A DNA stretch of 43,620 nucleotides from Subtercola sp. Z020 (lineage in GTDB: Bacteria > Actinomycetota > Actinomycetes > Actinomycetales > Microbacteriaceae): NCBI RefSeq assembly GCF_002931235.1, contig NZ_PSTT01000027.1:1-43620 (forward strand), in the 5' to 3' direction. Each line of letters starts with the position of its first letter. Position 1 is the stretch's first letter. A program made the translations under genes and the position numbers. A model generated the notes under the pieces. That model did not search any database. It was not told where the DNA came from and saw nothing but the letters and a program-made list of their open reading frames with translations. Shown one piece after another: positions 1,504 through 16,175 of the stretch.

Positions 1504-1521
1504 GCCGTCTGCGCTGGCGCC

Positions 1522-2991
1522 TCAGCCGGGCGCCGGCGCACCCGCCCCGCGGATGCGGCTCACGAGTTCTGAGGTCGAGTGCTCCGCCACGTAGCCGAGG
1601 ATGCGCACCTCTCCCCCGGCGGAGCGCACGACCTCCGACTCTTCGAGCATCTCGGCGCTGTAGTCCCCGCCCTTCGCGTAGATGTCGGGGCGCAGCGCCT
1701 CGATGAGCGCGCTCGGAGTGTCTTCATCGAACACCGTCACGTAGTCGACGAACCCGAGCGAGGCGAGCACGGCCGCACGGTCGCCCTCCGCGTTGATCGG
1801 TCGACCGGGGCCCTTCAGCCGCCGCGCCGAGGCGTCGCTGTTCACCGCGACCACGAGCAGATCACCCAGAGCCCGGGCCTGTCGAAGGTAGGTGGTGTGA
1901 CCGCGGTGCAGAACGTCGAAACATCCGTTCGTGAAGACCACACGGCATCCTGCAGCCCGGGCCTCGGCGACCGCGGCGAGCAGGGCGTCGCGACCGATCA
2001 CGTCGGGTGCCTCGGCCAGCCCGCGGAGGAGCTCCCCCGGCGTGCACACCGTCGTGCCGTCGTGCTGAACCACCACGTCGGCCGCCGCCTGCCCGAAGCT
2101 CGCAGCGACATCGAGCGGCAACCCAGCGATGCGCGCGAGTGTCAGCGCCGCCACGAAGGTGTCGCCGGCCCCGGATGCCTGGCGCTCGGCCACCGGCCTG
2201 GCCTGCGTTCGGTGCAGAACACCCTCCGGGGTCACGACCAGTGTTCCGTCGCGGTCGAGGGTGACGACCGCCGCCGCCGCCCCGGAGCGCGCGAGCACAT
2301 CGCCCGCCCGCCGCTCGACGATCGCGGCCCTGTCGGCGTCTGGCCGGAGTTCGGTGCCGAGCAGCAGCGCCGTCTCCCGTCCGTTCGGTGTGACGAGGTC
2401 GGCCGCGAACCGCCGCCACGCCGCCGCGTCGTGCGCGTCGACGACCGAGAACCCCGGTCGCTCGGCGCGTGCCTCGAGTGCCTCGCGCACCGGCCGCGAG
2501 ACGGCGCCGAGGCCGTAGTCGCAGACGATCTCGGCGTCGGCGCCCCGGCCCGAGGCGAGTGCGGCCGCCGCGACCTCGGCCAGCACCGCGGCCGGAGAGG
2601 GGGCGTGCGGTATCTCGTCGAGCCGCACGATCACCTGGTCTCCGCTCACGATGCGGGTCTTCGCCGCTGTGGCCGCGCCGCCGAAGCGCACCACGGGGGT
2701 GACATCGACGCCCGCCTCCGTGAGGAGGGCGAGCAGCCGGTCGGCCGCAGCATCCGTTCCGACGAGGCCGACGAGACGCACCCGCGCACCGAGGGCGGCC
2801 AGGTTCAGCGCGGTGTTCGCCGCCCCGCCGGCTGCATAGTGCCGTTCGGAGACCTCGACGACGGGCACGGGAGCCTCGCGCGACATCCGCGGTGCGTCGC
2901 CCCGGAACCAGCCGTCGAGCATGACGTCGCCGATGACCGTCACGAGCGGATGCCGCTCGACGACCTGGCGCACCAGCTCGGCGGTGATCAT
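1522..2991 (-). CDS. hldE: Bifunctional heptose 7-phosphate kinase / heptose 1-phosphate adenylyltransferase
   Basis: This 489-residue protein has the two fused domains of HldE (RfaE). Residues 1-325 are a PfkB/ribokinase-type kinase with GDVMLDGWF near 21, GGAANTALN at 55-63 and the catalytic GAGD at 274-277; it would phosphorylate D-glycero-D-manno-heptose 7-phosphate at C1. Residues 345-480 are a nucleotidyltransferase with TNGCFDVLHRGH around 354-365, KGGDY at 440-444 and HSTSEL near 471; it would transfer AMP to heptose 1-phosphate. All key motifs are intact, so this copy looks fully active. It overlaps the aldehyde dehydrogenase gene upstream by 4 bp (ATGA at 2988-2991), so the two are co-translated. 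A second, more divergent copy lies at 6526-8019. HldE is typical of Gram-negative LPS-core synthesis; in an actinobacterium it must feed another glycoconjugate. Confidence 0.92.
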   Translation of the reverse strand: MITAELVRQVVERHPLVTVIGDVMLDGWFRGDAPRMSREAPVPVVEVSERHYAAGGAANTALNLAALGARVRLVGLVGTDAAADRLLALLTEAGVDVTPVVRFGGAATAAKTRIVSGDQVIVRLDEIPHAPSPAAVLAEVAAAALASGRGADAEIVCDYGLGAVSRPVREALEARAERPGFSVVDAHDAAAWRRFAADLVTPNGRETALLLGTELRPDADRAAIVERRAGDVLARSGAAAAVVTLDRDGTLVVTPEGVLHRTQARPVAERQASGAGDTFVAALTLARIAGLPLDVAASFGQAAADVVVQHDGTTVCTPGELLRGLAEAPDVIGRDALLAAVAEARAAGCRVVFTNGCFDVLHRGHTTYLRQARALGDLLVVAVNSDASARRLKGPGRPINAEGDRAAVLASLGFVDYVTVFDEDTPSALIEALRPDIYAKGGDYSAEMLEESEVVRSAGGEVRILGYVAEHSTSELVSRIRGAGAPAPG

Positions 2992-4427
2992 GCCGGAGCC
3001 CCCGCGTCGTCAGGCGCCGGCAGCACCGGCACCGACGCCAGCTCAGGCATCGCCGGCAGCACCGGCAGCCCCAGGTGCACCACCTTCACGAGCGTCATCT
3101 CGTCGAGCAGCTCGGGCCCGTAGCCGAACCCCGATCCGCTGCCCGCGCGGGGTTCGGCCGAACCACCCGGCGCCCCGCCGAACACGGCATTCACCTTCAC
3201 GGTTCCGACCGGCAGCTCCGCCGTCGCGCGGTGCGCGTGCTCCATCGACGCCGTCAGCACCGTCGCCGCGAGGCCGTAGTCGTCGTCGGCGGCCAGCCGC
3301 AGCGCCTCGTCGAAGCTCCTCACGACCCGGACCGGTGCGACCGGCCCGAAGGTCTCCCTGCTCATCAGCGGCATGAACGGTTCGCAGTCGACCAGCACGG
3401 TCGCCGGGTAGAACGACCCCGGGCCCTCGGGCAGAACGCCGCCCTCGAGAATGCGGGCCCCCTCGGCGACCGATTCCTCGACCTGTTCGGCGACGGCAGC
3501 GCGCATCCGCTCATCGACCAGGGGTGCGAGCCGACCCGATCCGTTCAGCTCCCTGGCCTGGTCGACGAGGCTCTGGATGAACGCACCGGAGATGCCCGCG
3601 TGCACGAAGATCCGCTCGACCGAGGTGCAGATCTGCCCGGCGTTGGCGAAGGCGCCGAGGGCCGCCTGCCCCGCCGCCCACTCCGGGTCGACACCCTCGT
3701 CGACGATCAGAGCGTCGTTGCCCCCGTTCTCACGGATGACATGGATGCCGGTCAGCGCGGCAGCGCGGGCGATGCGCGCACCCGCCTCCGACGATCCGAC
3801 GTGCGCCACCGCCGCCGTCTCCGGCTGGGCGAGCAGGCGGGCGCCGACCCCGCCCTCCCCGCTGATCGTCGCCAGCACGCCGTCGGGGAAGGCCGGGGCG
3901 AGCAGCTCACCGAGCAGCAGGCCGACGTGCGGGCAGCGCTCGCTCGGCTTGTGCACCACCGTGTTGCCCGTCGCCAGCGCGGCGCCGATCAGCCCGCAGG
4001 CCACCGCGACGGGGTCGTTCCACGGGGTGACGACGGCGATGACCCCGCGGGGTTCGGCCACGGTGTAGTCGACGGCGGTGCGTGGGCCGTTCAGGCTCCG
4101 CCCGCGGTGCACGGGGGCGAGCTCGGAGTACTGCAGCAGCGTGTCGACCGCCGCATCGACGCCGCCGAGCGCCTCCGCAAGCGGCTTGCCCGTCTCACGG
4201 GTGTTGAGCTCTGCGACCTGCTCGCGACCCTCGGCGAGCAGCCCTGCCGCCCGGCGGAGCGCCAGGCCGCGCTCTGCAGGGGCCGTGCGGGACCAGCCCG
4301 CGAACGCCCGCTTCGCCGCCGCCGCTGCCAGGGCGATCTGCTCGTTCGTCGCGACCTCGACCACGCCGACCGGTCGACCGTCGCGCGGATCGGTGATGGT
4401 GAGCGTCTCGGGTGCAGGTTCCGTCAT
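2988..4427 (-). CDS. NAD(P)-dependent aldehyde dehydrogenase
   Basis: The 479-residue product is a full-length aldehyde dehydrogenase, which oxidises an aldehyde to a carboxylate with NAD(P). Motifs in order are TPWNDPV at 134-140, the cofactor-contacting KPSE at 160-163, the GSSEAG nucleotide-site segment near 211, the general base Glu233 in ENGGND, and the nucleophile Cys267 in NAGQICTSVER. The ENGGND form differs from the common ELGG. The chosen ATG at 4427 matches the family N-terminus; the frame stays open far upstream but that part is not ALDH-like. The stop overlaps the start of hldE by 4 bp. Its place in the heptose locus suggests an aldehyde related to sugar metabolism, but the family is too broad to assign a substrate. 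It is divergent from the GT9 gene at 4525. Confidence 0.9.
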   Translation of the reverse strand: MTEPAPETLTITDPRDGRPVGVVEVATNEQIALAAAAAKRAFAGWSRTAPAERGLALRRAAGLLAEGREQVAELNTRETGKPLAEALGGVDAAVDTLLQYSELAPVHRGRSLNGPRTAVDYTVAEPRGVIAVVTPWNDPVAVACGLIGAALATGNTVVHKPSERCPHVGLLLGELLAPAFPDGVLATISGEGGVGARLLAQPETAAVAHVGSSEAGARIARAAALTGIHVIRENGGNDALIVDEGVDPEWAAGQAALGAFANAGQICTSVERIFVHAGISGAFIQSLVDQARELNGSGRLAPLVDERMRAAVAEQVEESVAEGARILEGGVLPEGPGSFYPATVLVDCEPFMPLMSRETFGPVAPVRVVRSFDEALRLAADDDYGLAATVLTASMEHAHRATAELPVGTVKVNAVFGGAPGGSAEPRAGSGSGFGYGPELLDEMTLVKVVHLGLPVLPAMPELASVPVLPAPDDAGAPA

Positions 4428-4524
4428 GACCCTGCCGTACCCACTTCGAGCCCGGCGTACACCTCGCGAGGTTTCGCCGCACCGGCCGGTGGGCACAGAA
4501 GGAGGAGACAGCACGAGGAGACCG

Positions 4525-5667
4525 ATGACCACCCCGCTCCCGGCCCGCCGGGCCACCCCGACCATCGCCCCGCTCGCCGAACCGTTCGAGGGGGTCGAGC
4601 GCATCGCGGTTCTCCGGGGCGGCGGTCTCGGCGACCTGCTCTTCGCCCTGCCGGCACTGGATGCCCTGGCCAACGCCTACCCGGCCGCATCCATCACCCT
4701 GCTGGGCACTCCCCTCGCCCGCGCGCTGCTCGACGGCCGGCCCGGCCCGGTCTCCCGGGTGGAACTGCTGCCCCACGTCTCGGGAGTGCACCTCCCAGCC
4801 GGCTCGGCGGCGGACCCGGCGGCCGCGGCCGACTTCGCCGAGCGGATGCGCGCCCGGAACATCGACCTGGTGGCGCAGCTGCACGGCGGGGGCCGCAACT
4901 CCAACCCCTTCGTGCTGGGGCTCGGGGCCCGCCACTCGATCGGCCTGGCGACGCCGGACGCACCACAGCTCGAGCGCACCCTCCCGTACCTCTACTACCA
5001 GCACGAGGTGGCGCGTTTTCTCGAGGTGGCCGGCCTCGCCGGCGCGGCCCCGGTGACGCTCGAGCCGAGCATCCCCGTTCTCCCCCACGAGCGGGATGCC
5101 GCCGACCGCCACCTCGACGAGCGCCGCCACGGGCTCGTGGTGCTGCACCCCGGTGCGACGGACCCCCGTCGGCGCTGGCCGTGCGCCTCCTTCGCGGAGG
5201 TCGCCGCGCGCCTCGCCTCCAACGGCCGCCAGGTCGTGGTGGTGGGCGACGCGTCGGATCGCGAGCTGGCGGCATCGGTCGTCACAGCGACCCGCGAGCG
5301 CGTCGGTACCGCCGCGGCATCCCGTGTCTCGTCGCTCGCCGGGGAACTCGACCTCGGCACCCTCGTCGGGCTGCTCGAAGTGGCCGACGTCGTTCTCGGC
5401 AACGACAGCGGCCCGCGCCACCTCGCGCTGGCGGTCGGGACGAAGACCGTCGGGGTGTTCTGGGCGGGCAACCTGATCAACGCCGGCCCCCTGGGCCGGG
5501 CGAACCACCGCGTCGAGCTGTCGTGGACCACGCACTGCCCCGTCTGCGGCCGCGACAGCACCCAGGTCGGCTGGACCGCGGAGCGCTGCGAACACGATGT
5601 CTCGTTCGTCGCCGACATCGGTGTCGACGCGGTGTACGGGGATGTCTGCGAGCTGCTCGGCGACTGA
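4525..5667 (+). CDS. Glycosyltransferase family 9 (heptosyltransferase-like)
   Basis: The 380-residue product belongs to GT9, the family of LPS heptosyltransferases, which use ADP-heptose. It shows the N-terminal GT9 signature RGGGLGDLLFALPAL (about residues 31-45), an LVVLHPGATDPRRRWP segment that opens the C-terminal Rossmann domain, and GNDSGPRHLALAVGTKTVG with the DSGxxH sugar-nucleotide site. Near the C-terminus is a Cys-rich stretch (CPVCGRD, then RCEHD) that recurs in GT9 proteins of this kind. The ATG at 4525 has GAGGAG four bases upstream. It is transcribed alone on the plus strand, divergent from the ALDH-hldE pair and convergent with the SDR. It probably adds a heptose to an acceptor on the cytoplasmic face of the membrane; the acceptor is unknown. 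Confidence 0.88.
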   Translation: MTTPLPARRATPTIAPLAEPFEGVERIAVLRGGGLGDLLFALPALDALANAYPAASITLLGTPLARALLDGRPGPVSRVELLPHVSGVHLPAGSAADPAAAADFAERMRARNIDLVAQLHGGGRNSNPFVLGLGARHSIGLATPDAPQLERTLPYLYYQHEVARFLEVAGLAGAAPVTLEPSIPVLPHERDAADRHLDERRHGLVVLHPGATDPRRRWPCASFAEVAARLASNGRQVVVVGDASDRELAASVVTATRERVGTAAASRVSSLAGELDLGTLVGLLEVADVVLGNDSGPRHLALAVGTKTVGVFWAGNLINAGPLGRANHRVELSWTTHCPVCGRDSTQVGWTAERCEHDVSFVADIGVDAVYGDVCELLGD

Positions 5668-5695
5668 CCCGGACTCCGGCGCGGGAGCGGCGCAG

Positions 5696-5713
5696 GCCCG
5701 GCGTGCGCCGGGC
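5696..5713. terminator. Hairpin between convergent genes
   Basis: A perfect 7-bp GC stem (gcccggc / gccgggc) with a 4-base loop lies between the ends of the plus-strand GT9 gene and the minus-strand SDR gene. There is no T-tract, as is common in high-GC actinobacteria. It could serve both directions. Confidence 0.4.
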
Positions 5714-5735
5714 GAGGGCCCGGCTTGGGCGCCGA

Positions 5736-6440
5736 TCAGGGCCAGGAGTCCTCTTCGGCGTGGCAGATGAGGAGTTCCCGCACCTCGCTGGTCGCGGGCT
5801 GGCCGAGCGCGAAGAGGGCCGCCCTGGCGACGTTCTCGGGGTCGTTCAGGCGCGAGTCGTCGTGCGGCTTGTACTGCTCGTCGCGGTCGTCGAAGAAGCG
5901 GGTCTTCATGCCCGACGGGATGAGCGTGGTGACGCCGATCTGCCCCTTCGTCTCGGCGGCGAGCGCACGCGAGAACCCGAGCACGCCGAACTTCGAGGCA
6001 CAGTAGGCCGTCGCGTCGCTCACCGCCTTGAGCGCCAGAGACGACGCCACGGTGACGACCCGGCCGTGCGAGCGTGACAGGTACGGCAGGCTCGCCCGCA
6101 CGACGGCGACCGTGCCGAGCAGGTTGACGGCGATCACCCGTTCCCATTCCACCGCGTCGACCGCGTCGAGGCGGCCGCACCGGTCGATGCCGGCCGCCGT
6201 GACGACCGCGTCGAGACCGCCGGCCTCGTCGGCGATGCGGCGCACCGCCTCCTCCGCTGCTCGTGTGTCGGCGACGTTCACCTCGTGCGCCTCGAACTGC
6301 CGGACGCGGCTCACATCGAGGTCGAGGATGATCGGACGCCCTCCGGCGTCGGCCACCTCCCGGGCGACGGCGGCCCCCAGCCCGGAACCACCCCCGGTGA
6401 TGAGCACGGTGCCGATGGTACGGGTGGTGAGGTCAGCCAT
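5736..6440 (-). CDS. Short-chain dehydrogenase/reductase (SDR)
   Basis: The 234-residue product is a classical SDR. It has the cofactor motif TGGGSGLG at 15-22, an Asp (about residue 40) after the second beta strand that favours NAD(H), the AAG structural motif near 82, the catalytic Ser near 133-134 and YCASK (Tyr146, Lys150). It would oxidise or reduce a hydroxyl/carbonyl group in the cytosol. It is not an extended SDR of the HldD epimerase type: the length and motifs are those of the classical subfamily. It is the last gene of the heptose operon, 85 bases after hldE2, which suggests a role in modifying a sugar or acceptor. An AAAGG element sits about eight bases before the ATG. Confidence 0.87.
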   Translation of the reverse strand: MADLTTRTIGTVLITGGGSGLGAAVAREVADAGGRPIILDLDVSRVRQFEAHEVNVADTRAAEEAVRRIADEAGGLDAVVTAAGIDRCGRLDAVDAVEWERVIAVNLLGTVAVVRASLPYLSRSHGRVVTVASSLALKAVSDATAYCASKFGVLGFSRALAAETKGQIGVTTLIPSGMKTRFFDDRDEQYKPHDDSRLNDPENVARAALFALGQPATSEVRELLICHAEEDSWP

Positions 6441-6447
6441 GGAGATG

Positions 6448-6510
6448 CCTTTCGGGTGGGGGTTCGGGTGGCGCGGGTTTCGGGTGAAGCGGCTTTCGGG
6501 GAGGTGGGTC
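6448..6510. repeat. Imperfect tttcgggt repeats between SDR and hldE2
   Basis: Four imperfect copies of a roughly 15-bp element centred on ttcgggtg/ttcgggga fill the gap between the two genes. They include the leader and ribosome-binding region of the SDR gene. Confidence 0.4.
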
Positions 6511-6525
6511 GCGGGATGCGCGCGC

Positions 6526-8019
6526 TCACGAGACGCGCGCGAGGGCGTGGGCGAGTTTCGTCGTCGAGCGCCCCGGGTGGAACGGCACGGTCACGGTGCG
6601 GCCGCCCCAGCGCGACAGCAGCCGGGACTCGGGCAGCTCGTCGACGGAGTAGTCGCCGCCCTTGACCCAGACGTCGGGCCGGAGGGTGGCGAGCACGCGC
6701 TCCGGGGTGTCTTCACCGAAGACCATCACGGCGTCGACGACGCCGAGCGAGAGCAGCAGCTCAGCCCGGTCCTCCTGGCTCTGGATCGGCCGCTCGGGGC
6801 CCTTCAGCCGCGCGACGGACTCGTCGGAGTTCAGGCAGACGATGAGGCAGTCGCCGAACGCCCGCGCAGCGCGGAGCGTGCGGGCGTGGCCCGCGTGCAG
6901 AATGTCGAAGCAGCCTCCGGTGGCCACGACGGTGCCCCCGGCATCCCGGGTCTTCTGCGCGACGGCGAGCGCTGTCTCGAGGGCGGTGACCGTGCCGCGG
7001 CGGGCGGCCGCGTCGGGTGCGCCGACCGGCGAGAGACGGGCGGCTGGCGCGACTGGAATCTCACCCTCACGGGGCAGCCGTGCCGCCTCGCGGGGCAGCC
7101 GCCGAGCCACGCCCCCTGCGGAGAGGAATTCGGCAGCCTCGGTGACCGCCCGGCCCACGGCCCCGTCGAGAGGGGTGCCCGCGCCGAGTTCCCGCGCGAG
7201 CGTCGCAGCGAACCGGTCGCCCGCACCGCACGGGTCTGCGACGGTGACGGAGGGGGCGGCGAAGACCCGGGGTCGCAGATCGCCACGGCGCTCAGCCTGT
7301 GGCCCATAACCTGCCGGCGACCCACCATCGGCCAGAACCGCGCCGAGCGCGCCCAGCGTCACGACGACCGCGCCGACAGCCCAGCGTTCGCGGAGCGCCT
7401 CGCCCGCAGCAGCGCCTGTCGCGGCGTCGTCCCCACTCCCGCCCGCGCTTCCGGCCGCCGCCCGGGCCTCGGCGAGGTTCGGCGTCACCACGGTCGCACC
7501 CTCGATCGGCTGCGCCCCCCGCGGATGCGGGTCCCACACCACGGGAACGGTCGCCGCCACCTTCGCGAGAGTCGTGCGCAGCTCAGCGTTGCCGGCGAGA
7601 CCGCGGCCGTAGTCGGCCACGATCACGGCGTCGGCCGAGCGGATGCCCGCGAGCATCCGTTCGGTGACGGCCGGCACCGGCGGCGCCTCGCAGCCGTCGT
7701 CGAACCGTGCGATCGCGTGGCCGCCCGCGCGCAGCCGGGTCTTCACCGGTGTCGGCGCGCCGGAGTCGCCCGCCGTGACCCGGAGCGTTCCGAGCGCGCT
7801 CCGCAGTTCCTCGGCGCGGGAGTCAGCCGAAAGCACCGTCACGAGCTCGACCGCGCATCCGTCGCGCTGCAGGAGCTCGGCGACCAGCCCGGCGCCTCCG
7901 GCCCGCACACGCCGCTGCTCCACATCGATCACCGGAACGGGCGCATCCGGGCTCAGGCGTTCGGCACGCCCCACGATGTCGACGTCGAGCAGCACGTCTC
8001 CCACGACCACGACCTTCAT
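6526..8019 (-). CDS. hldE: Second HldE-like heptose kinase/adenylyltransferase, diverged kinase domain
   Basis: This 497-residue protein has the same two-domain order as HldE. The nucleotidyltransferase half is intact, with GGCFDILHAGH at 368-378, LKGPERPI near 405-412, KGGDY at 453-457 and GRSTTKL near 483. The kinase half keeps DPCGAGD at 262-268, but the N-terminal substrate motif that reads GGAANTALN in the other copy is here GGAGLVAELL (41-50), losing the conserved Asn, and a Gly/Ala-rich insertion lies near 190-206. The ATG at 8019 overlaps the end of gmhA by 4 bp, so it is translated with gmhA. It is either a second full HldE with altered sugar specificity or mainly an adenylyltransferase. 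It sits in the main heptose operon. Confidence 0.87.
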   Translation of the reverse strand: MKVVVVGDVLLDVDIVGRAERLSPDAPVPVIDVEQRRVRAGGAGLVAELLQRDGCAVELVTVLSADSRAEELRSALGTLRVTAGDSGAPTPVKTRLRAGGHAIARFDDGCEAPPVPAVTERMLAGIRSADAVIVADYGRGLAGNAELRTTLAKVAATVPVVWDPHPRGAQPIEGATVVTPNLAEARAAAGSAGGSGDDAATGAAAGEALRERWAVGAVVVTLGALGAVLADGGSPAGYGPQAERRGDLRPRVFAAPSVTVADPCGAGDRFAATLARELGAGTPLDGAVGRAVTEAAEFLSAGGVARRLPREAARLPREGEIPVAPAARLSPVGAPDAAARRGTVTALETALAVAQKTRDAGGTVVATGGCFDILHAGHARTLRAARAFGDCLIVCLNSDESVARLKGPERPIQSQEDRAELLLSLGVVDAVMVFGEDTPERVLATLRPDVWVKGGDYSVDELPESRLLSRWGGRTVTVPFHPGRSTTKLAHALARVS

Positions 8020-8717
8020 GAGAGTCGCCTCGGCCCGGCATCCCGCGCCCGCACGGTGTGGTCGAAAGCCCGGCAGACGGCGTGCAGGGCGATGAGCTGC
8101 GCCTCCTGCACGTTCGCTGAGGGCCCGGGCAGCGCGATGTGCTCGTCGCACGCCTCGCAGAGCGGGTTCGGGCCCCGCCCGGTGAGGGCCCAGGTGGTGA
8201 GGCCGAGGCGCCGCGCTGTGGCAGCGGCCGCCAGCAGGTTTGCGCTCGATCCGCTCGTCGACAGCAGCATCAGCACGTCGCCCGGGCGGCCGTGGCCCGC
8301 AACCTGGCGGGCGTAGACCTGGTCGAAGCCGTAGTCGTTAGCGATCGCTGTCACGCTCGACGTGTCGGCGTGCAGGGCGATGGCCGAGAAGGGGCGCCGA
8401 TCGCCGTCGAACCGGCCGACCAGCTCGGCCGAGAGGTGTTGCGCTTCGGCGGCCGAACCGCCGTTGCCCGCCGTGAGCAGGCGGCCGCCGGCCATCAGCC
8501 GCTCGGCGAGCTCGCAGCCCCACGCGCTCAGCACGGCGGCGTTCTCCTGCAGGGCCGAGAGCGTGGGGGCGAGCGAGTCGAGGTGCAGGTCGACGGCCGA
8601 CCGGGCGGCCTGCCGCTCGGCGTTCTGCGGGCTGTCGCGAGGTGCAGTGCGCCCCGTCGCGGTCGTCGCGGTCGCGGCCGTCGCGGTCGTCGCGGTCGTC
8701 GCGGTCGAGAGGGTCAT
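8016..8717 (-). CDS. gmhA: Sedoheptulose 7-phosphate isomerase
   Basis: The 233-residue product has one SIS domain and matches GmhA, which converts sedoheptulose 7-phosphate to D-glycero-D-manno-heptose 7-phosphate, the first committed step of heptose activation. Visible are the phosphate loop GNGGSAAEAQHL (84-95), which contains the catalytic Glu, then HADTSSVTAIANDYGFD (117-132), STSGSSANL (153-161), and the C-terminal EAQLIALH (206-213) with the catalytic His. The first 25 residues are an unusual Thr/Ala-only stretch encoded by gtcgcg repeats, which adds about 30 residues compared with typical GmhA. It overlaps the neighbours on both sides by 4 bp, so it is in the core of the heptose operon. 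Confidence 0.92.
   Translation of the reverse strand: MTLSTATTATTATAATATTATGRTAPRDSPQNAERQAARSAVDLHLDSLAPTLSALQENAAVLSAWGCELAERLMAGGRLLTAGNGGSAAEAQHLSAELVGRFDGDRRPFSAIALHADTSSVTAIANDYGFDQVYARQVAGHGRPGDVLMLLSTSGSSANLLAAAATARRLGLTTWALTGRGPNPLCEACDEHIALPGPSANVQEAQLIALHAVCRAFDHTVRARDAGPRRLS
8656..8707. repeat. gtcgcggtc simple repeat in the 5' end of gmhA
   Basis: About six short units of gtcgcggtc / gtcgcg make up codons 4-21 of gmhA and give a Thr/Ala-only N-terminus before the conserved SIS domain. Confidence 0.6.
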
Positions 8718-9967
8718 CGCAGGGCCCCCGTCAGCGACGTGCCGACCCGGGGCCGGGCGGTGCGGGCGATCGTCTGCCGGTACACCCGGGCCGTCTCCGC
8801 GGCCACCCGCGTCCATGAGTAGCGGCCGCGCACCCGCACCCGGCCCGCGTCGCCGAAGGCCCTGAGGCGCGCCGGGTCGGCGAGCAGGTCGGCGACGGCG
8901 GCCGCGATCGCGTCGGGATCGCGCGGAGGAACGAGCAGCCCGGTCACGCCGTTCACGACGCTGTCGGTGAGACCCCCGACCGCCGAGGCGATCACCGGCA
9001 CGCCGCAGGCCATCGCCTCCAGGGGCACGATGCCGAACGGTTCGTACCACGGGGCGCAGACCACTATGTCGGCCGAGCGCAGCACCGCCGGCATCTCCGC
9101 GGGGTTCACCTGCCCGCGGAGGCGTACCCGGTCGCCGATACCGAGCCCCTCTGCCAGGTCGAGCAGCCGCTTCACCTCCGGGTCACTCGCCGCGATCGAC
9201 GGAGTGAGCGACCCGCCGACGATCATCAGTTCGACATCGTCGCGGGTGGTCGCGGTCAGAAGGCCGAGTGCCTCGATGACGAGGTCGACCCCCTTTCTCG
9301 GCACCAGGCGGCCGACGGTCATGATGCGGTGCGGCCGGCCCCGCTGCTCCGCCTCGCCGTCGGGGGTGAAGTGCTCGACGTCGACCCCGCACGGAGCAAC
9401 GGAGATGCGGGCGGGGTCGACACCGAGCGTCTTCAACTCGAAGGCCTCGTCGGAGCAGGTCGCGATGATCGCGTCTGCACTCCGGCCCACCCACGGCTCG
9501 AGGAACTCCCGCTCGGCGGGGCTCGTGTCCTCCGCACCCTGGTGCCGGCGTTTGACGACGCCGAGGGCGTGGAACGTGTGCACGACGGGAACCGGTCGCA
9601 GCGACCGACGGGCGGCGTCGAGGGCGGCGACCCCCGACATCCAGAAGTGACTGTGCACGATCTCGGGGCGACTGCGCTGCCAGTCCGCAGCGAGCCCCTC
9701 CGCGAGTGCCGGCATGAAGGGCAGCAGCTGGTCTTTGGGTATCGGTTCGGGCGGGCCCGCCGTCACATTGACCACCTCGACGCCCGGGGCGAGCGGCACA
9801 CGCTCAGGCGTCGTGGGGTCGTCCCTGCGGGTGTACACGGTGACGAGGTGGCCTGCCGCGGCGAGCGCCGTCGACAGCGCGGCGACGTGCACGTTCTGTC
9901 CGCCCGCATCCACCCCGCCGAGCACCGCGAGCGGGCTGGCGTGCTCGGAGACCATCGAAATCCTCAT
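8714..9967 (-). CDS. GT4-family glycosyltransferase
   Basis: The 417-residue product is a GT-B glycosyltransferase of family 4 (MshA/sucrose-phosphate-synthase-like branch). It has GGVDAGGQNVHV at 17-28, the HSHFWMSG segment near 105-112, VGRLVPRKG near 218-226 at the start of the donor domain, and the EX7E motif EPFGIVPLE at 309-317 that binds the nucleotide sugar. An AAGGAGT ribosome-binding site lies six bases before the ATG at 9967. It overlaps both gmhA downstream and the next glycosyltransferase upstream by 4 bp. In the heptose operon it would transfer a hexose or heptose to the growing glycan; MshA itself (mycothiol synthesis) is a possible alternative on sequence class, but the operon context argues against it. 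Confidence 0.85.
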   Translation of the reverse strand: MRISMVSEHASPLAVLGGVDAGGQNVHVAALSTALAAAGHLVTVYTRRDDPTTPERVPLAPGVEVVNVTAGPPEPIPKDQLLPFMPALAEGLAADWQRSRPEIVHSHFWMSGVAALDAARRSLRPVPVVHTFHALGVVKRRHQGAEDTSPAEREFLEPWVGRSADAIIATCSDEAFELKTLGVDPARISVAPCGVDVEHFTPDGEAEQRGRPHRIMTVGRLVPRKGVDLVIEALGLLTATTRDDVELMIVGGSLTPSIAASDPEVKRLLDLAEGLGIGDRVRLRGQVNPAEMPAVLRSADIVVCAPWYEPFGIVPLEAMACGVPVIASAVGGLTDSVVNGVTGLLVPPRDPDAIAAAVADLLADPARLRAFGDAGRVRVRGRYSWTRVAAETARVYRQTIARTARPRVGTSLTGALR

Positions 9968-11046
9968 GGGGCGACTCCTTCGTGTGAGAACGCGCGGGCA
10001 GGGCTGCCGGCGCGGGCGGGTGGGGTCTGCGTCGGGCGCTCCCGGCGATGACTCCGGATGCTGTGCCGCTCGACCGCCTCGGCGAGCACGCCGTTCCACC
10101 GGTCGAGGAACGCCGAGAGACCAAAGTGCGCGAGCGCGAACCCCCGGGCCGCCGCGCCCCGCCGCGCCGCCTCCTCCGGGTCGTCGAGCAGCAGCCGCGT
10201 CGCGCGCACGAGGGCGTCGACGTCGGGCGAGATCGCGCCGGCCTCCGGCGGCACCGCGAGCGTCGCCTCTGTCGCCGCAAGCGCGACCACCGGCATCCCG
10301 AGGTGCATCGCTTCGAGCAGCGTCAGGCCGAGCGAGGTCCAGCGGAACGGATGGACGTACACCCGCCGCTCGGCGAGCGCGGCGTGCAGTCGGGCCGGAG
10401 GCAGGTCGCCGAGAATGCGGAACCGGTCGGCGACGGCGGGGCTGGCGCCCGCGTGCGCGGCGAGGGCGGAGGGCAGGGCATCCGTTCCCATCCCGAACAC
10501 ATCGACGGGGCCGACTTCGGCGAAGCGCGGCAGCAGGTCGGTGCCGGTCACCCGCCAGCGCCGCACCGGCTCGTTGATGACGACGGCCGTTCGCACCAGC
10601 GCGCCGGTGTAGAGCGCCCCCGGATCGGGAACGCCGTGCTCGACCACGGTGGTCGGCGCCCGGCCGGAATCCCACATCAGGTCGTTGAAGTGCGTGACGT
10701 GCACGAGCGGGATGTCGCTCTGCTCCGCCAGCGGATGCAGCGCGTTCGGCACGTCGCCCTTCGGCGTGTTGTGCTCGACGTAGACGGCCGGGATGTCGCG
10801 GCCCGGCCGCCTGCCGAGCAGCCGTTCGACCTCGGCCAGCTCGTCGGGGCGCTGCAGCACGACGACATCGACCCCGGCAGCGGACAGGTCGCCGGGCGCC
10901 ACCTCGACCGCGTTCGGCCAGTCGCGGCCGCCGCGACCGAGCCCCCACGGGCCGCCCTCTGCCGTCGTCGGCAGCAGGTACCGGTGCGGGCCGCGCACGA
11001 ACGACTCGGCCCAGCCGCCGTGCACGTGCCAGAGCAGAACCCTCAT
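9964..11046 (-). CDS. Glycosyltransferase, GT-B fold
   Basis: The 360-residue product looks like a GT-B glycosyltransferase. It starts LLWHVHGGWAESFVRG, has a VEHNTPKGDVPNALHP segment near 90-104, and a C-terminal donor part with YVHPFRWTSLGLTLLEAM, in which the Glu of LLEAM is the last Glu of the family EX7E region while the first position is not clearly a Glu. The C-terminal 35 residues are Pro/Arg-rich and probably disordered. It overlaps the GT4 gene downstream and the GT9 gene upstream by 4 bp each. The donor and acceptor cannot be told; context suggests one sugar of the same heptose-containing glycan. Confidence 0.78.
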   Translation of the reverse strand: MRVLLWHVHGGWAESFVRGPHRYLLPTTAEGGPWGLGRGGRDWPNAVEVAPGDLSAAGVDVVVLQRPDELAEVERLLGRRPGRDIPAVYVEHNTPKGDVPNALHPLAEQSDIPLVHVTHFNDLMWDSGRAPTTVVEHGVPDPGALYTGALVRTAVVINEPVRRWRVTGTDLLPRFAEVGPVDVFGMGTDALPSALAAHAGASPAVADRFRILGDLPPARLHAALAERRVYVHPFRWTSLGLTLLEAMHLGMPVVALAATEATLAVPPEAGAISPDVDALVRATRLLLDDPEEAARRGAAARGFALAHFGLSAFLDRWNGVLAEAVERHSIRSHRRERPTQTPPARAGSPARAFSHEGVAP

Positions 11047-12263
11047 CGGAACACCCCCGCGCGCACCCGGTCGGCGCCCGTGTCACGGCCGGCACTCGCA
11101 GCCAGTTCGAGGCAGGCGTCGACCACCTCGTCGGCGCTCACCCCCGCCAGGCAGGGATGACCCTCGACCGGGCACTCCCTGGCCCTGCTCCCGCGGCACG
11201 GGGAGTGCTGGTCGCCGAGCAACCGGAGCGGCACACCGTACGGCGCCCAGCGCACCGCGGGAACGACGGGCGAGAACAGGCTCACGACGGGCGTTCCGAC
11301 GGCGGCGGCGAGATGCGCGGGGCCGGTGTTGCCGACGATGACGGCGGCGGCACCCTGCAGCACGGCGGCCAGCGTCTCGACGTCGCTCCGACCCGCGAGG
11401 TCGAGCACCCGCCCGCGGCCACGGCCTCCGTCGCCGCCACCGCTGGCACCACCACCCCCGTCGCCGCCGCTGGCACCACCACCCCCGGCACCACCAACGC
11501 CACCGCCACCGCCACCGCCGTCAGCAGTACCGCCACCCGGATGCCCCGCCACCCGCGCCGCCAGCTCCCGCTCGGCGGGCGCTCCCGTCACCACCACGTT
11601 CACCCCCCGCTCGGCGAGTAGCGCGACCGCCTCGCCGCACCTCGCGGCGGGCCACTGCCGCGCCCCGACCGCCGCGCCCGGATGCAGCACGACATACGGC
11701 TGCCCGCCGAGCGGCGCGAGGAGGCCGCGCGCCGCGGCCCGTGCTCCCCCGCCGACACCGACCCGCAGCGCACCGTCGTCACCGGGCGGCAGGGCGAACC
11801 CCGCAGCCGCCGCGATCTGCAGCGCCCGCTCCGGTTCGGGCTGGTCCTCAGCGAGATCTTCACCAGGGCGCAGCCGCGTGTCGAGCAGCGTGCCGGCGAA
11901 GTCCACCGAGGCACCGGTGATCGAACGCACGCCCGCCAGTCGCAGCAGCAGCGCGAGCGGGAGCGGCGACTGGTGGAACGAGGTGAGGATGACGGCGGCA
12001 TCGGGGTCGGCCGAAGCGACGAGCGCCGACAGCTCGGCGATCGACTCCGGGGTCACCTCCGACGTCGGCGTCGTGATCCAGGGGCAGTTCCAGACGAGAA
12101 CGTGGTCGACGCCCGGCAGCAGACGGGCGGCCGGTGCGCCCTGCGGGCTGACGAGCATCCAGACCCCGTCGACATCGCTGCGCGCAGCGATCGCGCGCAC
12201 GGAGGGGCCGGCGACCAGCACGTCGCCGAGGCTGTCGAGGCGGGCGACCAGCACGCGCGTCAC
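11043..12263 (-). CDS. Glycosyltransferase family 9 with Gly-rich insertion
   Basis: The 406-residue product is a GT9 protein: RLDSLGDVLVAGPSVRAI near the N-terminus, VVLHPGAAVGARQWP opening the second domain, VGNTGPAHLAAAVGTPVVSLF at the nucleotide-sugar site, and a C-terminal Cys cluster (SPCRG, ECPVEGHPCL). The site has NTGxxH rather than DSGxxH, as in some GT9 subgroups. Between the domains, at about residues 242-281, is a 40-residue stretch of almost only Gly, Ala, Ser and Asp, encoded by tandem repeats and not part of the normal fold. The GTG start at 12263 overlaps the end of gmhB (GTGA), and the stop overlaps the next gene, so it is translationally coupled on both sides. Confidence 0.86.
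   Translation of the reverse strand: MTRVLVARLDSLGDVLVAGPSVRAIAARSDVDGVWMLVSPQGAPAARLLPGVDHVLVWNCPWITTPTSEVTPESIAELSALVASADPDAAVILTSFHQSPLPLALLLRLAGVRSITGASVDFAGTLLDTRLRPGEDLAEDQPEPERALQIAAAAGFALPPGDDGALRVGVGGGARAAARGLLAPLGGQPYVVLHPGAAVGARQWPAARCGEAVALLAERGVNVVVTGAPAERELAARVAGHPGGGTADGGGGGGGVGGAGGGGASGGDGGGGASGGGDGGRGRGRVLDLAGRSDVETLAAVLQGAAAVIVGNTGPAHLAAAVGTPVVSLFSPVVPAVRWAPYGVPLRLLGDQHSPCRGSRARECPVEGHPCLAGVSADEVVDACLELAASAGRDTGADRVRAGVFR
11419..11538. repeat. Tandem repeats encoding a Gly-rich insertion in a GT9 gene
   Basis: Two near-identical units (30 bp at 11431-11460 and 27 bp at 11461-11487) are followed by ccaccg-type triplet repeats to about 11538. All unit lengths are multiples of three, so the frame is kept. 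Confidence 0.7.
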
Positions 12264-12796
12264 GGCGCCAGCCCCAGAACACGCATCGCGCCCTCGAGAT
12301 CGTCGGCGACCGCGCCGGCCGAGTCGATCTCCTCGGCGCGGGTCGCGGCCGTGGGCACCAGCACCGAGCGCGATCCCGCCGCCCGCGCCGCCTCGACATC
12401 GGCACCGATGTCGCCGACCATGGCGAGGTCGCCCGGCGCGAGCCCGAGCTTCGCGGCCGCCGAGAGGAGCATGCCGGGGCGGGGCTTGCGGCAGCCGCAG
12501 CCCTCGTCTTCGCGGTGCGGGCAGATCTCCCACACGTCGAAATCGCCGAGCTGCCGCTCGATCTCGGCGTTGACCGCCTGCGCCTGCTGCACCGTGATCA
12601 GGCCCCGCCCGATCGCGGACTGGTTCGTGACCACGCCGACCCGCACCCCGGCCGAGCGCAGACCGTCGAGCACGCGGCGCGCGACAGGCATCACCTCGAC
12701 GCGGCGAGGGTCGCCGTTGTACGGAACGTCGACCACCAGGGTGCCGTCCCTGTCGAAGAGCACGGCCCGTGGCGGTGGCGGTGTTGCAACGTTCAT
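12260..12796 (-). CDS. gmhB: Heptose 1,7-bisphosphate 7-phosphatase
   Basis: The 178-residue product is an HAD-superfamily phosphatase of the GmhB/histidinol-phosphatase type, which removes the C7 phosphate from heptose 1,7-bisphosphate between the kinase and adenylyltransferase steps of HldE. It has motif I FDRDGTLV (about 14-21), motif II TNQSAIGRG, the zinc-binding group CPH followed by CGC just after it, motif III KPRPGM and motif IV GDIGADVEAA. Size is normal. The ATG at 12796 begins the seven-gene heptose operon; it is divergent from the GT9 gene at 12893 with 96 bases between. Histidinol-phosphate phosphatase is the other possibility on sequence alone, but gmhA and hldE in the same operon decide for GmhB. 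Confidence 0.9.
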   Translation of the reverse strand: MNVATPPPPRAVLFDRDGTLVVDVPYNGDPRRVEVMPVARRVLDGLRSAGVRVGVVTNQSAIGRGLITVQQAQAVNAEIERQLGDFDVWEICPHREDEGCGCRKPRPGMLLSAAAKLGLAPGDLAMVGDIGADVEAARAAGSRSVLVPTAATRAEEIDSAGAVADDLEGAMRVLGLAP

Positions 12797-12892
12797 GGCA
12801 ACGGTGTTCCCGCCTTCCTGCCCGGCTAAACCTCTTGCCGCCCGGTGCCGTCGCCTCTTCTCTGCGGGGCAGAAAGGGTGTAGTGGTGAAGG

Positions 12893-13876
12893 GTGACGAC
12901 CCCCGATACAGCCGACCTGCGCCCCGAGGTGCTTCTCCTTCGAACGCTGAAACTCGGCGATCTGCTGGTGGCCGTACCCGCCATCCACGCCGTGCGCCGA
13001 GCGCTGCCCGGACATCGCCTGGTGCTCGCGATGCCCGGCTGGCTCGAACCGGTCACCCGGTTGGTGGGCGGGGTGGATGCCCTGCTGCCCACCCCCGGGC
13101 TCGACGACCCGCTCCCCCTGCCGCCCGGCCGCATCGACACCGCGATCAACCTGCACGGCCGCGGGCCCGAGAGTGACTCGCTGATCGCGCTGTTGGAGCC
13201 CCGGCACACGATCGGTCACTCGACAGCGGGTTTCGGCGGCCCGGAGTGGCGCGACGGCATGCTCGAACGCGCCCGGTGGGCCCGCCTGGTCGAGGCGCAC
13301 GGGATGCCCGCCGACCCCGACGATGTGGCGCTCGAGGGCGTGACGCCGCCCGCGCCCGTCGACGACGCCGTCGTCGTGCACGTCGGCGCGTTCTACGGGT
13401 CGAGGCGCTGGCCCGCCGAGCGGTTCGCGAAGGTCGCGGAGGCCCTCCGGGGCGACGGGCACCGCATCATCTTCACGGGCAGCGAGGCCGAGCGGCCGCG
13501 CGCCGAGGAGGTCGCCCGCCTCGGCGGGTTCGGCCCCGAGAGCGTCTCGGCGGGCCGCCTGGCGCTCGACGAGTTCGCCGCTGTGGTGAAGTCGGCGCGG
13601 CTCGTGGTCTCGGCCGACACCGGTGCGGCTCATCTCGCGTCGGCCTACGGAATCCCCTCCGTCGTGCTCTTCGGCCCTGCTCCACCCGAAGAGTGGGGGC
13701 CGCCCGCCTCGGGCCCGCACGTCGTGCTGACGGATGCCCGGCAGCGGAGGGGCGACGCCTTCGCCGACGCCCCCGACCCCGCGATCCTCGCCGTGCAGGT
13801 CGCAGACGTGCTCGCGGCAGGCCGCTCCCTGCTCGCCGACAGCGCTGCACGGCGGGCGGGCACGGCACGCGGCTGA
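12893..13876 (+). CDS. Glycosyltransferase family 9 (heptosyltransferase-like)
   Basis: The 327-residue product is the third GT9 protein of the locus. It has LLRTLKLGDLLVAVPAIHAV near the N-terminus, VVVHVGAFYGSRRWP opening the C-terminal domain, and SADTGAAHLASAYGIPSVVLFG with the DTGxxH site found in LPS heptosyltransferases. It lacks the Cys cluster of the other two. The start is taken as GTG at 12893; there is no good Shine-Dalgarno, and TAGTGG six bases upstream could be a weak -10 of a leaderless transcript. It is divergent from gmhB and convergent with the sigma factor gene. Likely role: transfer of a heptose to a membrane-linked or soluble acceptor in the cytoplasm. Confidence 0.85.
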   Translation: MTTPDTADLRPEVLLLRTLKLGDLLVAVPAIHAVRRALPGHRLVLAMPGWLEPVTRLVGGVDALLPTPGLDDPLPLPPGRIDTAINLHGRGPESDSLIALLEPRHTIGHSTAGFGGPEWRDGMLERARWARLVEAHGMPADPDDVALEGVTPPAPVDDAVVVHVGAFYGSRRWPAERFAKVAEALRGDGHRIIFTGSEAERPRAEEVARLGGFGPESVSAGRLALDEFAAVVKSARLVVSADTGAAHLASAYGIPSVVLFGPAPPEEWGPPASGPHVVLTDARQRRGDAFADAPDPAILAVQVADVLAAGRSLLADSAARRAGTARG

Positions 13877-13900
13877 GGAGGTCGGGGCCGCCGCCGGCGG

Positions 13901-14752
13901 TCAGGCCGCGCTCGGCACCGCCGCGGCATCCAGAACCGCGACCCTCACCCCGTCTGGCGCCGACGCGGGCAACTCGCTCAGCAGCGTGCGGAGCAGCGCG
14001 AGCGACCGGCCGAGCAGTCGCGAGACGTGCATCTGGGTGATGCCGATCTGCTCCGCGATCTCTGCCTGCGTCTTCTCCTCGAAGAAACGCAGGTACAGGA
14101 TGCGGCGCTCCCGCTCGGCCAGCGCGCCGAGTGCCCACGAGAGCACCTGCAGCGTGTCAATGCGCTCGAACCGTTCGTCGTCGACGCCGATCGAGACACC
14201 CAGGCTGATGTCGGCGTCGTCGGCCGCCGGCGCGTCGAGCGAGGTGGGGCGCAGGCTGTTGTGCGCGGCGAGCGCCTGCTCGACGTCGGCCGCCTTCTCC
14301 CCCAGCGCCTCGCTGAGTTCGCCGACCGACGGCATGCGGCCGAGACTCTGGGCCAACCGCGGAACGAGCGCGTTCGTGCGGGCCCACAGCTCCTGCACGC
14401 TGCGCGGCGGGCGCACCACCCAGCCGACATCACGCAGGTGCCGCTTGATCTCACCGGTGATCGTGGGCACGGCGAACGCGACGAAGTCCCCTCCCTTCCC
14501 GGACTCGTACCGGTGCGAGGCCTTGATCAGCCCGACGCGCGCCACCTGCCGCAGATCGTCGAACTCGTGCTGCGACCCCGGGCGGCTGTAGCGGCGAGCC
14601 AGAGCGTCGGCGAGTTCGAGGTGGTCGACGACCACACGATCGATGCACGCCTGCCTCTCGCTCGGTCGGGCATCCAGAGCAGCGTCGAACAGCTCGGCGG
14701 TCGCGGCCTTCTTCTCGGCCCAGCGCTCGGTTCGGTCGGTGAGCGGCGGCAT
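13901..14752 (-). CDS. RNA polymerase sigma factor, SigB/SigF type (group 3)
   Basis: The 283-residue product is an alternative sigma-70 factor with regions 2, 3 and 4. Region 2 contains DDLRQVARVGLIKASHRYE and FVAFAVPTITGEIKRHLRD, followed by the SigB/F-typical VVRPPRSVQEL. Region 4 ends with QAEIAEQIGITQMHVSRLL, the -35-binding helix-turn-helix. The preferred start is ATG at 14752 because a GGGG element lies five bases before it; a GTG at 14758 would add two residues. Group 3 sigma factors of actinobacteria serve general stress and envelope responses and are usually held by an RsbW-type anti-sigma factor, but no such gene is adjacent. Its place between the heptose cluster and another glycosyltransferase may mean that it controls cell-surface genes; that is inference. 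Confidence 0.9.
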   Translation of the reverse strand: MPPLTDRTERWAEKKAATAELFDAALDARPSERQACIDRVVVDHLELADALARRYSRPGSQHEFDDLRQVARVGLIKASHRYESGKGGDFVAFAVPTITGEIKRHLRDVGWVVRPPRSVQELWARTNALVPRLAQSLGRMPSVGELSEALGEKAADVEQALAAHNSLRPTSLDAPAADDADISLGVSIGVDDERFERIDTLQVLSWALGALAERERRILYLRFFEEKTQAEIAEQIGITQMHVSRLLGRSLALLRTLLSELPASAPDGVRVAVLDAAAVPSAA

Positions 14753-14819
14753 GTGCACCCCATCTGCGTCTCGAGGAACGGTTCAGCCGAACGCGCGGCG
14801 GGGCCGCGCTTCGGTGCAG

Positions 14820-14848
14820 ACAGAACAGCACTCGGGAATCGGTGTCAA
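14820..14848 (-). promoter_or_regulatory. Possible promoter upstream of the sigma factor gene
   Basis: On the minus strand a perfect TTGACA (14843-14848) is followed 17 bp later by TTCTGT (14820-14825), a weak -10. It lies between the GT2 and sigma genes and would give the sigma gene its own start. Confidence 0.25.
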
Positions 14849-14867
14849 AAGGGGTTGTCTTCTTCTC

Positions 14868-15809
14868 TCATTCGCGCAAGGCGAAGCCCGTCGGCGCCCG
14901 CGCCCGGTGCTGCTCGGGCCAGAGCAGGTCGAAGACGTCGACGCTGCGATTCGGCAACGTCGTGGGGGCCTCGAGGTGCACGGCGCCGCTCGGCAGGATG
15001 CCGGCTCCGCCGAACGCCTGCATCACCCGCCACTCGGCCGCCACGTCTTCTCCTGCGTGCTGCCGGGGCAGATCGGGGCCGAAGTCGAACCCGCCGACCG
15101 CCAGCAGGGCCGAGCGACGGTAGAGCACGCAGCCGCCGATCCACGCGACCTTGTAGGCGACCCACTCGTCGTCCGCCAGCGCGAGCCCGGCGGCGATGTG
15201 CGCGAGGTTGGCCGCGTTGTGCAGCCGCCAGCGTTCGAAACCGGGTGAGCCCCGGCGGATGTGCTCCGGATGCACGGCCCCTGCCCACCGTTCGAACGGC
15301 GCCTGCTCGGCCGGGCGGTGGTCGCCGAGGTACGAGAGCCCCTGCACGGCCGCACCGACGAAGCCGCAGTCGAGCACTCGGATGGCGTCGACCAGCCGGA
15401 CCAGCTGCCCCGGCTCCAGCCAGACATCGTCGTCGAGGTAGAGCACGAACTCGGCGACGGCGTGCTCGAGCAAGAACTGGCGCTGGGCGGCCATTCCGCG
15501 GGGCGGGCCGCTCTCGAGAACCCGCACCGGGCGCCCCTGTGCTTCGAGCACCCGGATCATCGACCGGATGCCCGGCTGCTGCAGGGGCGCTGCACCCGCG
15601 GCCTGGCTGCCGATCACGACGCGGAACGCCGGGGCGTCCTGCGCGGCGAGGCCGGCGAGGGTGACGGCCAGCTCGGTGACGCGATCGAGGGTGGGGATCA
15701 GAACGTCGACCGCAGGGGCGTGGAGTTCATGGCTCCCGGCACCCGAGCCCACGCGCGGCGCGCCCCACTCCTGGGAGCCCTTCCGGCTGCGTCCCAGGGT
15801 GGCGGCCAC
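14868..15809 (-). CDS. Glycosyltransferase family 2
   Basis: The product of about 313 residues is a GT-A glycosyltransferase of family 2. VDVLIPTLDRVTELAVTL is the typical first strand and helix, FVLYLDDDVWLEPGQL carries the metal-binding DDD (equivalent of DXD), and GGFDFGPDLPRQHAGEDVAAEWRV has the acceptor-side ED. The frame stays open upstream to 15923, but that part overlaps the DUF2795 gene in another frame and is not conserved-looking; a GTG at 15809 just after that gene is the best start, though GTG codons further in are also possible. No membrane segment is visible. It probably adds a sugar to a surface glycan; donor unknown. It follows the DUF2795 gene by about 20 bases. Confidence 0.8.
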   Translation of the reverse strand: MAATLGRSRKGSQEWGAPRVGSGAGSHELHAPAVDVLIPTLDRVTELAVTLAGLAAQDAPAFRVVIGSQAAGAAPLQQPGIRSMIRVLEAQGRPVRVLESGPPRGMAAQRQFLLEHAVAEFVLYLDDDVWLEPGQLVRLVDAIRVLDCGFVGAAVQGLSYLGDHRPAEQAPFERWAGAVHPEHIRRGSPGFERWRLHNAANLAHIAAGLALADDEWVAYKVAWIGGCVLYRRSALLAVGGFDFGPDLPRQHAGEDVAAEWRVMQAFGGAGILPSGAVHLEAPTTLPNRSVDVFDLLWPEQHRARAPTGFALRE

Positions 15810-15828
15810 GAGCTGCTCGTCTCCGGCG

Positions 15829-16023
15829 CTAGGAACCGGAGACGGCGCTCGAAACCGCCGTCGGGCTGTCGAATGAATCGGCGCCCGCGTTCGTGAGAGC
15901 ATCGACGATGTCGTCGGGGGCACCGTTCTTCCTGGCCGTCTCGATCAACTCATCCCGGCTCGCCGGGTAGTCGACTCCGCCGAGGTACTTCTGCAGCTGG
16001 ATGGGGTTCGGTGTCTCGCTCAT
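15829..16023 (-). CDS. DUF2795 family protein
   Basis: The 64-residue product matches the small DUF2795 family of actinobacteria: the stretch IQLQKYLGGVDYPASRDEL and then IETARKNGAPDDIVDAL is the typical two-helix core, which in this family often lies in a winged or HU-like compact fold. The C-terminal 15 residues are Ser/Ala-rich. The ATG at 16023 is clear. It lies just upstream of the GT2 gene and divergent from the acidic gene at 16176. Function is not known for the family. Confidence 0.85.
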   Translation of the reverse strand: MSETPNPIQLQKYLGGVDYPASRDELIETARKNGAPDDIVDALTNAGADSFDSPTAVSSAVSGS

Positions 16024-16163
16024 GCAGAGATTCCAGCACCATCGATACGCCGTGTGACGGGGTTGCCTGTCTGCAGGAGCAGAAGATACAAAGAGGGGTT
16101 GCGCCGAAGCATCCAGAGCGTCCGGTCGAAAGCAAGCCCCTGCCCGCCGGCGACGGTTGGGCC

Positions 16164-16169: not shown

Positions 16170-16175
16170 GGGACC

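Follow-up and report, generated by a model that had tools for sequence, protein, structure and literature searches.

Why should a bacterium without lipopolysaccharide (LPS) carry a complete set of genes for nucleotide-activated heptose? The question is raised by a locus of Subtercola sp. Z020 (Microbacteriaceae), found in a 43,620-nt stretch of contig NZ_PSTT01000027.1 (the window) from the 3.53-Mb genome, which is assembled in 166 contigs. A preliminary description, made from the sequence alone, had placed gmhA, gmhB, two hldE fusions, three GT9 and two GT4 glycosyltransferase (GT) genes, an SDR oxidoreductase and an aldehyde dehydrogenase (ALDH) between positions 1522 and 13876. Family searches recovered all of these genes at the given places. 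The extent had to be revised, as the locus continues to ~ 16.1 kb and takes in a sigma factor and a GT2 glycosyltransferase. The insertion, the difference between the two HldEs and the wide occurrence of such loci in the class had also escaped the preliminary description. In the reading that we propose, and to which we give an even chance, the locus would make nucleoside diphosphate (NDP)-heptose, and a soluble primer started by an MshA-like enzyme would be extended by the other glycosyltransferases under the control of a stress-type sigma factor.

A predicted route to NDP-heptose

The genes for the isomerase, kinase, phosphatase and nucleotidyltransferase steps lie together in one island, namely gmhA (8016-8717), hldE1 (1522-2991), hldE2 (6526-8019) and gmhB (12260-12796), all on the minus strand. 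Gene boundaries were guided by family matches, start codons were our choice, and the coordinates include stop codons. Here and below, we infer every enzyme activity. GmhA would convert sedoheptulose 7-phosphate to heptose 7-phosphate, the HldE kinase domains would yield heptose 1,7-bisphosphate, GmhB would take off the 7-phosphate, and the HldE nucleotidyltransferase domains would charge the resulting heptose 1-phosphate. GmhA aligned to solved phosphoheptose isomerases (8.1e-37), and its gene was the only match in the genome, where neither a second GmhA nor another GT9 was found elsewhere. The two halves of HldE1 and HldE2 matched, by sequence, the D-β-D-heptose 7-phosphate kinase 4e84 and the cytidylyltransferase-like protein 5x9q, an enzyme titled HldC in entry 5xf2. 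Both nucleotidyltransferase domains cleared the curated cut-off (198.9 and 182.7 vs 181.5 bits). The best model for GmhB was the heptose-bisphosphate 7-phosphatase PRK08942, and the protein cleared two broader models, HAD-IIIA and that of the histidinol-phosphatase domain. The motifs GAGD and HxGH in both HldEs, GNGGS in GmhA and DRDGT in GmhB are intact. With families and motifs in place, the earlier claim of a complete gene set from sedoheptulose 7-phosphate to NDP-heptose stands, and a route to NDP-D-glycero-D-manno-heptose is well supported by sequence.

The stereochemistry was approached through HldD, the epimerase that the preliminary description had noted as absent from the window. The genome-wide search returned nine weaker matches, the best of which reached 103.3 bits against a curated cut-off of 274.6, and none of 36 other locus-bearing named genomes had an HldD over it (best 187.7 bits, Nocardia asiatica); among 14 control genomes, two did. 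An HldD hidden elsewhere in the genome was therefore rejected at this cut-off, although an unusual epimerase could score lower. Because no HldD passed, the heptose made is likely the D-glycero form, as had been supposed. LpxC gave no match in the genome and was detected in four of the 14 controls, including E. coli. The absence of LPS, which the preliminary description had assumed, is thus borne out, and the heptose cannot serve LPS.

The two HldEs belong to different lineages, HldE1 being the canonical form. In trees built from 22 loci (picked from the 80 described below), the window and E. coli, HldE2 (support 100/100) and HldE1 (93/94) formed separate groups. The E. coli HldE fell on the HldE1 side, a placement that carries a long-branch warning. 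The Asn of the kinase motif GGAAN, which we take to be the sugar-binding Asn of ribokinases, was kept in 29/29 HldE1 sequences and replaced by Leu in 79 of 81 HldE2 sequences (the others had one Met and one gap); the catalytic Asp was kept in 81/81 HldE2. At the C-terminus of the window's HldE2 stands FHPGRSTT, which agrees fully with the (F/L)XXGRSTT (STTR5) motif. HldE1 of the window reads YVAEHSTS, which does not match, and the E. coli protein reads FEDGCSTT. Arg occupied this place in 62/81 HldE2 vs 6/29 HldE1, with the region not located in one and four sequences, respectively. A 2024 commentary associates the motif with nucleotidyltransferases whose products include CDP- and UDP-heptose (PMC11573728). 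HldE1 would supply ADP-heptose, and HldE2, the second and divergent line, probably takes CTP or UTP as well; these nucleotide preferences, too, we infer.

All three GT9 proteins, GT9A (4525-5667, plus strand), GT9B (11043-12263, minus strand) and GT9C (12893-13876, plus strand, divergent from gmhB), cleared Pfam PF01075 and stayed below the LPS heptosyltransferase models of NCBIfam. They formed three separate groups in the tree (100/100 each), with the E. coli rows as long branches. The preliminary description was to be given up if structure-based comparison placed the GT9 and HldE proteins in non-heptose families. That was not found for the two proteins modelled. The first structural matches of the GT9B model (predicted local distance difference test, pLDDT, 87.6) were the GT9 protein 3tov and then WaaF and WaaC, the heptosyltransferase fold being checked on GT9B among the three. 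The AlphaFold model of HldE2 (pLDDT 85.1, predicted template-modelling score 0.62) matched Burkholderia HldA first. A non-heptose family assignment was consequently not supported for either protein. At the positions of WaaC Asp13 and Lys192, residues that we presume to be functional, Asp was found in 27/28 GT9A (one gap), 70/70 GT9B and 65/65 GT9C rows, and Lys or Arg in every row of the three groups. The position of WaaC Asp261 was Asp in 27/28 GT9A (one gap) and 65/65 GT9C rows and in both E. coli rows, and Asn in 68/68 actinobacterial GT9B rows. TibC-type protein heptosylation was also considered and set aside; GT9C matched five PDB chains, all of them 3tov, WaaF and WaaC entries. GT9B of the window carries a Gly-rich, low-complexity insert (11433-11534, residues 244-277, pLDDT mostly < 50) that was not seen in the consensus of its relatives.

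A probable insertion with a recurrent gene order

The segment from ~ 1510 to 16128 looks like an insertion, as same-genus genomes had nothing equivalent at this place. Its GC content was 73.7% (1522-15923), compared to 70.6% in the remaining window. The left flank is a zinc-type alcohol dehydrogenase gene (451-1500), and the product of the right-flank gene (16478-18112) weakly matches ATPases of the ParA/MinD type. These flank genes lie side by side in 5/11 same-genus genomes. Positions 1499-1509 and 16129-16132 of the window mapped 41, 27, 82 and 305 bp apart in G001, G011, G008 and G009, respectively, and in G003 the matches ended at 1508 and resumed at 16478, 842 bp apart. In G002 and G005 (L187 and L186), ~ 15 kb separates the two flank genes, which lie on opposite strands; the genes in between are unrelated and include none from the locus, so the insertion site looks variable. 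In G004, G006, G007 and G010, the best dehydrogenase match was just 35-47% identical and at another place. None of the 11 genomes held a close relative of HldE1 (best 6.9e-8), and neither the GT2 nor the sigma factor was found in any of them at 1e-20. The simplest reading of this pattern would be a gain in Subtercola sp. Z020, rather than a loss in all 11 others. A Cryobacterium comparison reports a GT9 in one strain only (PMC12113805), which fits the patchiness of the locus. Integration at a tRNA site was rejected, since a search of the window detected no tRNA, and no boundary repeats were obvious among those listed (20 of 53 direct families and 25 of 71 inverted pairs). Between the GT2 gene and the right insertion edge sits a gene for a 64-aa DUF2795 protein (15829-16023, minus strand; PF11387, 74.0 bits vs cut-off 25).

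Judged by homology, heptose loci are widespread in the class: HldE1 as a query had a match at ≤ 1e-40 in 91/394 genomes and 44/138 genera. A scan of named genomes with the HldE2 alignment gave 80 loci for comparison, the best of 544 confirmed; the locus counts in this text hold for loci selected by likeness to HldE2. The order gmhB-GT9B-GT4b-GT4a-gmhA-hldE2 on one strand recurred in 54/80 loci, and in 44 of the 60 loci of at least 19 kb, as judged on recognised genes (unrecognised genes between them would go unseen). Such recurrence of six genes is far from chance. In the window, the five junctions of this minus-strand series each have a 4-bp overlap with the starts as chosen, as does the junction between ALDH (2988-4427, minus strand) and hldE1, an arrangement that resembles tightly coupled operons.

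hldE1 was present in 26 of the 60 longer loci, which belong to Arthrobacter and its kin, Microbacteriaceae genera, Brevibacterium, one member of Actinomycetales and one Parafrankia. These 26 loci contained the SDR (26), GT4b (25), GT9C (21), GT9A (20), ALDH (19), the sigma factor (18) and GT2 (12), and no carbamoyltransferase. GT2 directly followed hldE1 in 11/80 loci. ALDH also occurred in 18 of the 34 loci without hldE1, a count that may include unrelated ALDHs. The same locus is found in another genome of the taxonomic order (L160, G330, 7843-18226), where hldE1, GT4b and GT2 are each broken across two frames; it is either decaying or represented by poor sequence. Three loci from genomes of a single genus (L145, L146 and L147) have a transketolase gene at a distance of two genes from hldE1 (confirmed by Pfam for L145), which would fit a supply of sedoheptulose 7-phosphate.

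Acceptor, regulation and rival readings

The best indication of the acceptor came from GT4a (8714-9967, minus strand). Its best solved matches, over the whole length, were Tll1590 (6kih, 1.3e-69) and 3c4q (9.5e-62), which we take to be a sucrose-phosphate synthase and C. glutamicum MshA, respectively. Both kinds of enzyme use phosphorylated acceptors. The EX7E motif was kept in 72/72 GT4a rows, as were the positions of MshA Lys78 and Arg154, presumably the ligands of the acceptor phosphate. The resemblance to MshA is a hint of a soluble phosphorylated acceptor. A separate MshA-like gene is present on contig C101, where the model matches in two pieces (198.6 and 122.8 bits). GT4a, together with the divergent GT4b (9964-11046, minus strand), might build a short primer on a soluble phosphorylated polyol or sugar, a proposal whose odds we consider even. 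The three GT9s and the GT2 (14868-15797, minus strand; the open reading frame extends to 15923, and a start near 15797 is likelier) would then lengthen the primer with heptose and other sugars. The classical SDR (5736-6440, minus strand) and ALDH, with intact YxxxK and GQIC motifs, would oxidise the product; as a guess, they could turn a primary alcohol into an acid. By hydropathy, a crude measure, the locus proteins of the window have no strong membrane segment (top 19-residue mean 1.87). A wall glycopolymer, glycolipid or glycoprotein, which the preliminary description had listed as acceptors, was not supported, as no gene among the shared neighbours of the loci names an acceptor.

The sigma factor gene (13901-14758, minus strand) matched TIGR02980 (SigB/SigF/SigG) over nearly the whole profile. 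It was near the locus in 18/26 hldE1-bearing loci, and in 14 of the 60 longer loci it adjoined GT9C in the arrangement sigma(+) GT9C(-). Since it lies near the loci and is absent from locus-free relatives, it likely travels with the heptose locus as a partner, and it probably turns the locus on under stress. A possible parallel comes from Frankia, where an 'ADP-heptose:LPS heptosyltransferase' was found in salt-tolerant strains only and was salt-induced (PMC5563000).

Several observations weigh against the proposed soluble, stress-controlled heptoside. Of the heptose-pathway domains, only the nucleotidyltransferase ones reached curated NCBIfam cut-offs: GmhA scored 142.6 vs 209.45 bits, the HldE kinase domains 205.1 and 141.2 vs 345 bits, and GmhB 111.5 vs 178 bits, and a DxD-type motif near the start was found in only 52/67 GmhB proteins of the loci. 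The best NCBIfam model for GT4a is MshA, with 266.4 bits against a cut-off of 462.5, so GT4a as a typical MshA was rejected. The position of MshA Tyr110 is Phe in 70/72 GT4a rows, that of Thr134 is Ala in the 31/31 rows inspected, and GT4b is a weak control, with a gap in the Lys column in 31/31 rows and the Arg kept in 1/31. The strict STTR5 motif was present in just 9/81 HldE2 (and 0/29 HldE1), and another report describes the motif as not strictly required, with one HldE being NTP-promiscuous without it (PMC11461863). As to regulation, the sigma factor is 10 bits short of its subfamily cut-off (224.0 vs 234.35 bits). A sigma-F-like promoter consensus had no match in the window, a weak test with 0.06 matches expected by chance.

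Heptose could also enter a glycan of the cell envelope (a wall polymer, a lipoglycan or an exopolysaccharide) whose units are exported by genes elsewhere in the genome, a reading that we regard as possible, if somewhat doubtful. The 34 longer loci without hldE1 add an epimerase (21), a carbamoyltransferase (20), UDP-glucose dehydrogenase (12), an FAD oxidoreductase (9), another GT2 (7) and a pyruvyl-transferase family protein (6, a weak match); the epimerase, carbamoyltransferase, dehydrogenase and pyruvyl-transferase would suit an envelope glycan. So would several glycosyltransferases from three families, which suit a branched product. Eight of the 80 loci, those of Micromonospora type, likewise have another GT2. 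A Pseudomonas study describes a carbamoyl group on inner-core heptose of LPS (PMC8005017). This is echoed by an arrangement in loci L093-L142, where the carbamoyltransferase adjoins gmhB in 13 of the 35 loci of at least 19 kb without an hldE1 module. Nevertheless, no flippase, polymerase, ligase or LCP family was present in the clusters common to at least 6/80 loci, a check that did not extend to export genes elsewhere in the genome. It comprised a Pfam search of 18/21 clusters, of which c10, c13 and c18 had no match and c16 had only helicase domains; the remaining three (c2, c4 and c6) were apparently open reading frames antisense to locus genes.

An MFS transporter gene lies near 8/80 loci, seven of Streptomyces and one of Actinoplanes (L103, L108, L116, L117, L119, L128, L129 and L132). 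It may export the product, or its closeness may be accidental within a single genus; a membrane step is thus possible, which again speaks against a purely soluble path. The same gene would fit a sugar pathway for a natural product of the septacidin, hygromycin B or bleomycin kind, and the combination of carbamoyltransferase, HldE-like and GT9-like genes would resemble the bleomycin sugar genes. We consider this origin unlikely, as inspection by eye of the open reading frame lists, with no profile search, recognised no scaffold-forming enzyme, and the spread of HldE over 44 genera is broader than expected for a single-compound cluster. Equally improbable, in our view, is that the HldE2 line activates a non-heptose sugar, which GT9B transfers. 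Since the conserved kinase Asn is lost in nearly all HldE2, the kinase substrate may indeed differ, which also counts against our proposal, and the Asn that replaces WaaC Asp261 throughout actinobacterial GT9B points the same way. Yet hldE2 directly follows gmhA in 35/35 loci of at least 19 kb without an adjoining hldE1 module (the 34 hldE1-less loci and Parafrankia L099), and 30 of those 34 have gmhB; both counts cover the loci themselves, and these genomes may hold a second HldE elsewhere. The position beside gmhA and the presence of gmhB argue for heptose.

The most far-reaching version of the soluble-heptoside proposal is a mobile island with its own stress-type sigma factor that makes a small soluble heptose glycoside from an MshA-like start, with both ADP-heptose and CDP- or UDP-heptose as donors. 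We think this rather unlikely; if true, CDP/UDP-heptose would gain its first role, and actinobacteria a new class of stress metabolite.

Elsewhere in the window, 30341-34174 encodes a long protein in which RNase H-like domains and helicase (AAA) domains were recognised, and the 5' end of this gene, as called, overlaps the opposite-strand thiamine pyrophosphate enzyme gene at 34003-36516.

Comparison with known systems

We recognised no paper in our literature search on the function, acceptor or product of this heptose gene set. The 2024 commentary by the authors of a cross-kingdom heptose study calls the roles of CDP- and UDP-heptose elusive, suggests that adjacent genes may hint at them, and adds that heptoses may do more than known (PMC11573728). 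The locus described here is such a neighbourhood, with a conserved gene set, a divergence between two HldE lineages at the nucleotide-preference motif, and no LPS; it is present in one genome and absent from the 11 other searched genomes of the genus. The locus makes a heptose role without LPS directly testable.

The pathway itself is known, NDP-heptose enzymes of actinobacteria have already been published, and the locus is a variant. Our analysis contributes the paired HldE lineages, the conserved set of glycosyltransferases, the sigma factor and the insertion. The inner-core heptose pathway of E. coli LPS (gmhA, hldE, gmhB, hldD and waaC/F/Q) uses the same enzyme families from sedoheptulose 7-phosphate to ADP-heptose. 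Unlike that pathway, the window set has two HldEs, with neither an HldD over the cut-off nor an LpxC in the genome, and its heptose genes cluster with GT4s, the SDR, ALDH and the sigma factor. The NDP-heptose synthetases of actinobacteria described by Tang et al. in 2022 are reportedly tridomain enzymes that likewise combine isomerase, kinase and nucleotidyltransferase activities, whereas the window has a separate gmhA and didomain hldE genes. The heptose pathways of septacidin and hygromycin B in Streptomyces are said to use sedoheptulose 7-phosphate as well. In contrast to them, the window has GT9s, and no antibiotic scaffold genes were recognised by eye. Carbamoylation of heptose by WapO in Pseudomonas (PMC8005017) has a parallel in the carbamoyltransferase beside heptose genes in 20/34 hldE1-less loci. 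It differs from the hldE1-bearing type, where 0/26 loci have this gene and none was recognised in the window. Finally, GT4a is like MshA and sucrose-phosphate synthase over its length, with EX7E and the two basic residues in all 72 rows, and it is set apart from MshA by a score (266.4 bits) under the cut-off of 462.5.

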